Source: Symbiodinium natans (Eukaryota > Sar > Dinophyceae > Suessiales > Symbiodiniaceae). From it: 64,000 nucleotides of DNA. Shown piece after piece: positions 2,017-63,770 of the stretch (within the stretch, counting starts at the first letter, position 1; every line of letters begins with the position of its first letter). The notes beneath the pieces are model-generated. The model did not search any database and was not told the DNA's origin. It was given only the letters and a program-made list of their open reading frames with translations. Both the position numbers and the translations under genes were made by a program. The stretch lies in contig CAJNDS010002401.1 of NCBI GenBank assembly GCA_905221605.1, forward strand, positions 295,542-359,541, given 5' to 3'.

Positions 2017-5000
2017 TTCGCCAGGGAGCTCGAGGCAAGTGGTACCATTGGCGCTGGGCAGCCATGGCTCAATCCGCGCCTGGGCGTAGGTTTAGAGTTT
2101 AGGGCTTATAGGGTTTAGGGTACAGGGCTCTATGCAACCTGAACTGGGTTTAGGGTTTAGGGTTTAGGGTTTAGGGTTTAGGGTTTAGGGTTTAGGGTTT
2201 AGGGTTTAGGGTTTAGGGTTTAGGGTTTAGGGTTTAGGGTTTAGGGTTTAGGGTTTAGGGTTTAGGGTACAGGGGCTCTATGCAACCTGAACGGGGTTTA
2301 GGGCTTAGGGCTTAGGGTTTAGCCTTCAACCAACCCTACAGCAAAAATGCCCCAAGCTGAAGGACCGGCTCCACCCAAACCACCGGAGCACGAGCGCCCA
2401 AGCCCCACCCCCCCTAGAGGTCCTGGCCCCTTAAAAACCGTAGGACCTCAAAGGCGGGTTTAGGATATAAGGGTTTAAGGACATAAGGGTTTAGGATACA
2501 AGAGTTTCGAGTTTAGGGTTTGAGGGTTAGGGTTAGGGTTTGGGCTGTCGGGTTTAGGGTTTCGAGGTCAAAGCCCCCAAAACCCTGAACCCCAGGCCCC
2601 AACCCGAAGCCCTCAACCCTCAACCCTAGCCCCTATGAACCCTCAAGGCGCAGACCCCAACCCCAAAGGCCTCTGAGATCACTAAACCCTAAACCCTAAA
2701 CCCTAAACCCCAAACCCTAGACCCCTCAAACCCTAACGCCTGCAAGCACACTTGCAGCCTCCAGGAGGCGTCGGACCACTTGGCTGTGCCTCGCTCCTTG
2801 CTTGAAGTGGATTGGGGGTTCCATGGGGTCTTGGGATTTCAGGGCCGGTCAAAGGTTTATAGGGTTTAGGGTTTAGGGTTTAGGGTTTAGGGTTTAGGGT
2901 TTAGGGTTTAGGGTTTAGGGTTTAGGGCTTAGGGTTTAGGGGTTCAGGGTTCCAATGGGCTTAGGAAGGCTGAGGATGGCTTGGGGTTTAGGACCGGGCA
3001 GCCGTCCCACAGAGCCGCCCCAACACCCTGAACTCCAAGTCCACATGCCGGCTTAGGGTTTAGGGTTTAGGGTTTAGGGTTTAGGGTTTAGGGTTTAGGG
3101 TTTAGGGTTTAGGGTTTAGGGTTTAGGGTTTAGGGTTTAGGGTTTAGGGTAAGAAGACTAAGACTCAGAGCAGTAACAGGCAACGATGAGGGACCTAGGA
3201 CCGAACATCTTCAACGCCGCCTTTCAAATCTTAAGCCCCAAAACCGAGCCACCCAAACGCCACAATCCAACCCTAAACTCCAAAGGCCCAAAACTTGTCC
3301 CCCCCCCTAAGTCGGCCAAGAAACTCTTTCCCCAGCAGGCTCGGTGCAAAGGCGCATAGCCGTCCCGGTGGAAGTGGTGCCTTACTTGCTCAAACCCTAA
3401 TCCCTAAACCCTAAAGCCCAAACCCTACACCCTAACCCTAGCTAGGGGGGGTTTCGGGTTGACGCACCTCGGGGCTTGAGGGGCTTTGCGGGCTTTAAGG
3501 CCTTGAGGGTGGGGGGGGGGGGGGGGTTAAGGACTTCAAGGGCTCTGCGGGGTTCAGAGTCTGCGGCTGAGAGCTCTACCCCTAGACTGGGTGTTCGGAT
3601 CAAGGGCTCAAGTTTCGTGTTGGAGCCAAGGCTTTTTGGTTTAGTGGTTAGGGCTATCAGCTGTTGAAATACCTTGAAACCCCAAACAACAAACCCTAAA
3701 CCCCTAAACCCTGAACCCTTAACCCTGAACCCTAAACCCTAAACCCTAAACCCAAACAACTAACCCTAAACTGCCAACATTCTGAGCATCGCTGAGACGC
3801 AGCTTCGAAGGGAAGGAGCTGTACTTCAGCAGCACGTCGATCACCTTGCTTGAATCATTGAAGAATCATCAGCTTCACTTTAGGGTTTAGGGTTCTGAGC
3901 TGTTATCACTGCTTGTCGCCTTAGCTGGAACAAGCCATGGACCTGCAAATGAGGTAGACATTGGTTCCACCGACTGCCAAAATGTGGACCCAACGACTTC
4001 GACGACTGTCCCGTGGCTTTTTTGGGGGTAGGGGCTCGGGCCTTAGTGTGATGAAGGTCATTCCCCTTAAGCCCCTTCCATTCTTGGGTTCTTACATAGG
4101 CGAAGTCTGGGATTTTTCGCATAGCCCTGGACCCCAAACCTAAGCCTAAACCCTAAACCCTAGACCCAAGTTGGGCCGTATCCTCAGGCTCCACCCTAAA
4201 CCCTAAACCCTAAACCCTAAACCCTAAACCCTAAACCCTGAGCTCTCGCGGCCTCCGGGCGTCCCTTCCAGGCCGCTGCGTCCATGGGCGTGAAGCCCTC
4301 CTTCAGACAGGGGTACAGGATTTCAGTATAAAATGTGGGTTTAGGGTTTAGGGTTTAGGGTTTAGGGTTTAGGGTTTAGGGATTCAGCATCTCAAGTTCG
4401 AGCATTTACTAGGCCAGCAGTGTGTGTAGGCAACGGAAAAAACCCACCCGCCCAAAGAATCCCATAGCATTAAGAAAATAAAAAGTTTTTCTTAATTTCT
4501 AGTCCGACGCACCCATGCCGTAACGTCTCACCCCTTCCAAGCACATCGCCCCCCGATAACCAAGACCTGGAATCATGCATTTTCACTGTCACTCGTAACG
4601 TCTCACCCCTTCCAAGCACATCACCCCCCGATAAGCACCTGGAATCATGCATTTTCACTCGTAACGCCTCACCCCTTCCAAGCACATCACCCCCCGATAA
4701 GCAAGACCTGGAATCATGCTTGGAAGGGGTGAGATGTTACGAGTGAAAGTGCATGATTCCAGGTCTTGCTTATCGGGGGGTGATGCGCTTGGATGATGTG
4801 CTTGGAAGGGATGAGACGTTACGAGTGAAAATACATGATTCCAGGTCTTGCTTATCGGGGGGTGATGTGCTTGGAAGGGGTGAGGCGTTACGACGGGCCG
4901 ATCCTGGGGTCACCCAGGGGGCGGGTGGGGGGGGGGGGGGGGGGGGGCCCTAAACTTTGCGGTTTAAAAGCGGGACCCTGGCAGATCTGGTGGTGGGGGG

Positions 5001-63770: not shown

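Follow-up and report, generated by a model that had tools for sequence, protein, structure and literature searches.

The closest described counterparts of the repeat blocks reported here are the short interstitial telomeric sequences of mammals, which share with them insertion at breaks, empty counterpart sites (orthologous ones in mammals), register, and deletions or duplications of the target, as set out in excerpts of one study (PMC7215372). For horse, the flanking template of the telomerase RNA is reported to be copied into such insertions (PMC7215372). The same excerpts place none of the human sequences in a coding exon, report no set direction relative to splice sites, and pose as an open question what intronic insertions do to mammalian splicing (PMC7215372). 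In contrast to these rare mammalian insertions, the blocks of Symbiodinium natans are very many, lie at intron ends and have a preferred direction. A second comparison is offered by dinoflagellate introners, on which Roy et al. 2023 is cited in the consulted portion of PMC11453091; those of Amoebophrya share intron formation by insertion, direct repeats at exon borders, non-canonical splice sites and inverted repeats at their ends (PMC7789003, in excerpt). Introners form families of repeated introns, however, whereas the S. natans introns have telomere-type ends and mostly unrelated interiors. Ciliates carry gene-sized chromosomes, and a piece with C-strand repeats (CCCTAAA) on its left and G-strand repeats (TTTAGGG) on its right resembles a capped mini-chromosome; the bracketed pieces of S. 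natans are exons inside long contigs, and the likeness to ciliates is a resemblance only. Among the open-access titles and openings of abstracts that were listed, we found no report of telomere repeats serving as intron ends, and the main text of the S. natans genome paper contains neither 'telomer' nor 'TTTAGGG' (PMC8045281).

Orientation of the repeats in the window and the genome

The first-pass annotation of the 64-kb stretch analysed here (the window) had proposed that telomere-type repeats bracket exons in a fixed, inverted orientation. All seven segments that it named do have CCCTAAA to their left and TTTAGGG to their right, and TTTAGGG stands on the left side at all three of its exceptions (51506, 52913 and 42950). 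The bias is strong, but it is not a rule, and 'most exons' was generous given that 6/14 exons of the BCKDHA gene described below are bracketed on both sides. Some of the bracketed segments are only putatively coding; the one at 2017-2079 scores low. Taking two or more units as a tract, of which the window has 142, we found neighbouring tracts 60-200 bp apart in 58 cases, 25 of them C-then-G and 6 G-then-C, as compared with a mean of 14.5 C-then-G gaps when strand labels were shuffled (p=0.0003).

The same asymmetry extended beyond the window. In twenty stretches of 10 kb each, cut at one fixed coordinate from long contigs on the spliced-leader list, gaps of 60-150 bp made up 68/100 of the C-then-G class versus 23/97 of the G-then-C class; over all sampled loci the values were 100/154 and 28/150. 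C-to-G gaps between successive tracts peak at 90-120 bp, and G-to-C gaps are broadly distributed. Across the searched genome (759.4 Mb in 2,543 contigs), where the telomere-type tandem repeat is found at interstitial locations, three-unit matches numbered 1,185,204 forward and 1,184,385 reverse (control, 41 and 33). The pattern CCCTAAAx2-N{80,110}-TTTAGGGx2 occurred 83,227 times versus 35,412 in the reverse order, counted as raw overlapping unit pairs, with controls at 0. We had expected the direction to reverse at 250-280 bp, which did not occur genome-wide: C-then-G still exceeded G-then-C (191,698 versus 138,161), a weaker excess of the same sign in a count that includes unit pairs deep in long tracts. 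Applied to the sampled loci, the identical count gave 51 versus 7 at 80-110 bp and 61 versus 33 at 250-280 bp.

Repeats are unevenly spread. Fourteen of the twenty stretches carry at least nine tracts, one carries a single tract and five carry none, with long runs of N in three of the twenty. Repeat-rich and repeat-free DNA alternate across the genome and also within contig C1 around ~235 kb, where the first forward three-unit match, among the matches listed, lies at 235,651 and the first tract of the stretch starting at 229,001 lies near 235,053. Repeat-free DNA holds a chaperonin gene (Cpn60_TCP1, contig C1992), and one repeat-free locus (L020) contains long frames that appear channel-like. 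The motif that we take to be the dinoflagellate spliced leader has 205 exact copies genome-wide (reversed control, 0); the genome paper, in the section consulted, gives 244 putative spliced leaders (PMC8045281).

Elsewhere in the window, two frames of ankyrin-like repeats lie on the minus strand at 30354-32106 and 44341-45489, the searched stretch of the latter matching Ank_2 with E=3.4e-32. Some 4 kb of repetitive sequence at 59245-63470 holds several open frames on both strands, and neither TTTAGGG nor CCCTAAA occurs between 58,938 and 63,698. Rfam (gathering threshold) and tRNA scans of the 64-kb window returned no matches.

Repeat strand at the splice sites of a conserved gene

The minus-strand gene at 49.4-58.5 kb encodes the branched-chain keto-acid dehydrogenase E1-alpha subunit (BCKDHA; Table 1) and supplied all of our exact introns. 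We placed 14 introns of 259-924 bp. Splicing out the 13 introns from intron 2 to intron 14 leaves an open frame of 246 aa that matches Pfam E1_dh with E=8.9e-57 and residues 160-394 of the human structure PDB 1dtw with E=1.3e-67 and few gaps; the exon before intron 1 lies outside this frame, and a protein version that includes it matches E1_dh at 9.7e-47. The introns are of the dinoflagellate spliceosomal type, with GT, GC or GA donors (4, 6 and 4, respectively), an AG acceptor in 13/14 and an open spliced frame. Because the borders were chosen by the analyst from homology, with introns 11 and 12 less certain, these donor and acceptor classes do not constitute independent evidence. Similar numbers of GA, GC and GT donors thus occur within a single gene (49471-58484).

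Table 1. Features of the window, with positions counted within it except in the first row; C and G denote CCCTAAA and TTTAGGG repeats
Feature	Position	Strand	Remarks
Window	295,542-359,541 of contig C2089
Bracketed segment named in the first-pass annotation	2017..2079		low coding score
Palindromic MITE copy	15810..15973	+	broken by a G-strand block
(TTTAGGG)5 inserted in the MITE	15841..15878	+	~27 bp of duplicated target on both sides, with differences
ABC-ATPase-like gene	17197..19473	-	Pfam match below curated cut-off; segments that we read as Walker A, LSGGE, Walker B and H-loop
Bracketed open segment	38519..38629	-	coding-like score
BCKDHA exon, ELVAHVERHPEHYAEKPLAM	49411..49470	-	bracketed
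BCKDHA exon, DMFRDVWAELTPELERQRQ	50179..50235	-	without a nearby block
BCKDHA exon, PPVKEVMEALKVAENKPFAPVK	50803..50868	-	bracketed; intron 12 acceptor ambiguous by one base
BCKDHA exon, GVWDDEREEELKGSYRQ	51506..51558	-	exception at donor side
BCKDHA intron 11	51559..52482	-	G block at donor+26 nt; C block 92 nt before acceptor; borders less certain
BCKDHA exon, YRDKGKVKDMARKGLEPISRSRLVVKA	52483..52565	-	bracketed
BCKDHA exon, YRQGHHSTSDDAA	52913..52954	-	exception: donor block in C sense
BCKDHA intron 9	52955..53420	-	donor G block; C repeats 80 nt from acceptor; predicted end-to-end fold
BCKDHA exon, ARALSLQGRPVLLELMT	53421..53470	-	bracketed; GC donor, then G block 9 nt on
BCKDHA exon, NDLAAVYLATKE	53919..53956	-
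BCKDHA exon, EQYAGDGIAARALSYGMPCIRVDG	54216..54285	-
BCKDHA exon, VLFICRNNGWAISTPAE	55058..55108	-	bracketed
BCKDHA micro-exon, NFAATLRSQ	55656..55683	-	without a nearby block
BCKDHA exon, VGVAFFGEGAASEGDFAVA	56284..56342	-
BCKDHA intron 3	56343..57212	-	G blocks start at donor+30 nt; C block ends 45 nt before acceptor
Head-to-head TTTAGGG/CCCTAAA block	56382..56518		flanked by a diverged ~23-bp direct repeat; inside intron 3 near the acceptor
BCKDHA exon, AVGAGYGFRISGEPR	57213..57257	-	bracketed, C left and G right (right repeat a single unit)
BCKDHA exon, AITSPLGTQIPQ	57844..57879	-	in the 246-aa frame
BCKDHA intron 1	57880..58484	-	GC donor; one C unit only; outside the 246-aa frame

In transcript sense, we scored a G-strand block starting within 35 nt of the donor and a C-strand block ending within 45 nt of the acceptor. 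Among the 14 introns, six have a G block and one a C block at the donor, and seven have a C block and none a G block at the acceptor, the seven ending 7-45 nt upstream of it (one being a single unit). When position and direction were both randomised, the means were 1.15 for donor-G, 1.16 for donor-C, 1.37 for acceptor-C and 1.39 for acceptor-G, with P values of 1.5e-4 for the observed donor-G and 2e-4 for the observed acceptor-C counts. When direction alone was shuffled, acceptor-C kept a P of 0.008, and donor-G was not significant (P 0.066). These values therefore indicate that repeats crowd around splice sites and that direction is strictest at acceptors. An order of C before G as rare as that in the BCKDHA introns has a P of 0.003-0.004. 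Where a repeat lies no more than 150 bp from an exon side, it agrees with the preferred sense in 17/19 instances (acceptor 10/10, donor 7/9), and widening the limit to 160 bp adds one agreeing and two disagreeing donor sides.

The earlier suggestion that telomere-type DNA could act as an intron end is thus borne out as far as the preferred sense at BCKDHA splice sites goes. The branch site and pyrimidine tract of an intron are positioned shortly upstream of the acceptor, and it is plausible, because of its distance to the acceptor, that the C block would serve as both. By repeat strand, seven introns hold C only, three hold G only and four hold both. The G-only introns carry their repeats 14-151 nt from the donor and 406-681 nt from the acceptor.

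Outside BCKDHA, a putative acceptor of the ABC-like gene has one G-sense block 96 bp away, beyond the 45-nt limit. Across all loci, segments with a low coding score (n=346) showed C versus G at the acceptor in 79 versus 39 and G versus C at the donor in 69 versus 37, and the bias was weak in high-scoring segments (n=131; acceptor C 16 versus G 7, donor G 13 versus C 11), many of the scored segments probably not being exons. We dropped this codon-score scan as too noisy a means of extending the direction test to all loci, and we also dropped protein kinases and chaperonins as sources of exons, their matches being mostly long open frames.

Some of the blocks, at least, are insertions

What the first-pass annotation missed is that blocks can be insertions, which is apparent from empty and filled sites and from flanking direct repeats. 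The comparison of sites is made within one genome, among copies of a common palindromic MITE of ~100 bp that has 32 arm matches on both strands in the sampled loci. Its positions in the window include 6873-6979, 10185, 15810, 28582, 29338, 50377, 52397, 54849, 55263 and 55912, among others. Genome-wide, a MITE arm with a telomere-type block no more than 20 bp beyond it was matched at 123 raw places for G blocks, the first 100 listed comprising 79 distinct ones, and at 52 raw places (48 distinct) for C blocks, with controls at 0 for both.

Five distinct G cases, from six loci, were read closely, and the MITE resumes past the block in 4/5. At L034 the block is flanked on either side by a copy of one 36-bp MITE segment (34/36 identical by eye), and its start keeps the register of the element's TAGGG. 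Three units sit in the MITE centre at L036 with no visible loss, whereas ~6 bp were lost at L039 and the right part of the MITE is absent at L035; L037 and L038 represent one place, with 14 units. Register, small losses and target duplication, the junction marks of break repair, are thus all found in these cases. A direct repeat of the MITE arm on both sides of a G block occurs at 12 places (control, 0), whereas the arms are otherwise inverted. At C1774 and C1787 the arm-to-G and arm-to-C lists overlap at shared coordinates, and the block therefore has MITE arms on both sides. The four C cases that were read (L040-L043) differ in that the MITE does not resume as before past the block and none reads as a simple insertion. 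Three of them continue with an exon-sized unique piece, putatively coding, and then a G block; at L042 the far end of the MITE directly follows the C block.

Away from the MITEs, flanking direct repeats point the same way. Single clusters are flanked by direct repeats of at least 10 bp in 14/590 instances versus 2.5 in shuffled pairs, and Smith-Waterman flank scores of at least 11 were reached by 10/293 C clusters versus 2.6 and by 12/329 G clusters versus 3.0. Most of this direct-repeat excess is lost when clusters are merged at 120 bp or more. It is also a mixture, because four of the strongest cases (L017, L008, L019 and L018) are tandem duplications that include the block and not target duplications. 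These short tract-bearing duplications lie at L017 8655, L008 2434, L019 1620 and L018 4345, and look as if the tracts promoted local duplication. While part of the blocks at least are insertions, to say so of every block is an extrapolation.

One block looks like a new intron. At L030 (7555-8460) an open frame is cut by a C block with ACAGGAGAACTT on both of its sides; joining CAACAG to GAGAACTTGGGG across the block restores the frame and, judged from sequence alone, would use a GA donor and an AG acceptor, both putative splice sites lying inside the 12-bp duplication. The frame matches PX only weakly and does not reach the cut-off (E=0.0099).

How the direction may have arisen

On balance, we lean towards a reading in which telomere-type blocks were inserted en masse at breaks and owe their direction to a splicing filter, perhaps with telomerase acting on broken ends. 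Insertion at DNA breaks is supported by the evidence above: break repair most likely inserts such blocks in great numbers, and some blocks start in phase with short GGG or CCC motifs that were already present. For the filter, we infer that an insertion within a gene would not survive unless splicing removes it or the gene tolerates it. Just 5' of an acceptor, a C-strand block could act as branch site and pyrimidine tract, a G-strand block just past a donor could be harmless or helpful, and the opposite arrangements would be lost. Some insertions into exons may have turned into introns outright, their AG/G splice sites being supplied by the target duplication. Two-ended healing is a possible second contributor, in which telomerase would extend each broken 3' end with TTTAGGG; because TTTAGGG is added to each 3' end, a break healed on both sides would read TTTAGGG...CCCTAAA in either direction of the gene. 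The head-to-head block at 56382-56518 is the expected remnant of a staggered break with both 3' ends extended and then rejoined. We also put forward, tentatively, a bolder extension to genome-scale intron gain, in which breaks healed from both ends with telomere repeats became introns whose working ends the repeat supplied. Exons would then be capped like tiny chromosomes, because each such intron would mark a break that had been healed from its two sides.

It is less likely, though still worth serious consideration, that the chemistry of insertion alone sets the direction, with telomerase lengthening both 3' overhangs of a staggered break before the ends are rejoined, and with splicing playing no part. 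The expected product is duplication-TTTAGGG...CCCTAAA-duplication, an exon being the piece between two healed breaks. Consistent with this, 3/4 of the BCKDHA introns with both strands run strictly G before C, the fourth (intron 2) being broken by one single C unit before its G block; the window holds one head-to-head insertion with a duplication, as noted above; and at ~14/79 distinct listed places the G block extends the MITE's own AGGG, by eye. However, C blocks also begin at the MITE's own CCC, again by eye, which is the wrong side for this model. The MITE insertions examined are single blocks and not G..C pairs, and single blocks alone give no bracket bias. G-only introns, with the G repeats so far from the acceptor, would need large amounts of filler DNA. 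Flank similarity is equivocal: at a score of at least 9 there is a mild excess in G..C pairs (15/152 versus 7.6, with 0/60 shuffles as high), and exon-bracketing C..G pairs have none (0/173 versus 1.2 at a score of at least 11). G..G pairs nevertheless match G..C at score 9 (12/135 versus 7.0, reached by 2/60 shuffles), and because they share a like excess it is unspecific and weak as evidence for a class. C..C pairs show no excess at that score (6/100 versus 5.4), nor do G..C pairs at a score of at least 11 (1/152 versus 1.2) or whole G..C units under exact flank matching of at least 8 bp (10/140 versus 10.2).

We consider it improbable that the repeats are retained because the two ends of an intron pair in the transcript and so join the splice sites. 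For introns 9 and 11, the two that were folded, the prediction is a fold that joins their ends (z of -3.75 and -6.82, respectively), and inverted repeats of 8-20 nt join the intron ends of Amoebophrya introners (PMC7789003, in excerpt). Against this, blocks of at least two units on both strands occur in only 3/14 introns (3, 9 and 11), and complementary repeats would fold together regardless of use. The pairing of ends suggested in the first-pass annotation can therefore occur, on these predictions, but it is not general, and because most introns are without one partner it cannot be required.

It seems similarly doubtful that, within old introns, slippage or gene conversion expanded short seeds (TAGGG, CCC) into blocks in situ. 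Many MITE blocks are in register with such a seed, by eye, but insertion is needed to account for the 36-bp duplication, for the duplicated arm at 12 places and for the duplication within the open frame.

We give still less credence to the idea that the introns arose as copies of a mobile introner whose terminal inverted repeats are of telomere type. Dinoflagellates have active introners, according to part of PMC11453091, direct repeats flank blocks, and in 8/14 BCKDHA introns the intron and the next exon begin with the same two bases (P 0.058, assuming a chance agreement of one in three). Yet in a ~300-kb sample with G..C intervals standing in for introns, only 21/141 G..C interiors match any other segment, six of them with a MITE arm, and single blocks have flanking direct repeats more than whole G..C units do. 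As the interiors are not one family, we dropped the model of a common introner. Among C..G segments that match another segment, 1/9 has a MITE arm.

An assembly artefact or contamination by a second genome, which the alternation of repeat-rich and repeat-free stretches (as at the C1 boundary) might suggest, is very hard to credit, since both kinds of stretch lie on one contig and blocks occur within an intact conserved gene, BCKDHA, and, across many contigs, within copies of a single MITE family.

The origin of new introns is a long-standing question. Transposon-like introners are the best-known bulk source of introns (PMC9860276, in excerpt). Full-length transcripts of S. natans exist, according to part of its genome paper (PMC8045281), and the idea of intron gain is thus testable at once. 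Dynein AAA_6 matches fall in a 3,242-aa frame on C2492 versus pieces of 22-30 residues on C1812, C1757 and C1899, and these long-frame and short-piece copies form a natural comparison for intron gain or loss. If intron gain by the healing of breaks is true, the bracketing of exons in one sense would be explained, the genome would offer many natural tests of how far the neighbourhood of a splice site tolerates change, and break repair would join introners as a bulk source of introns.
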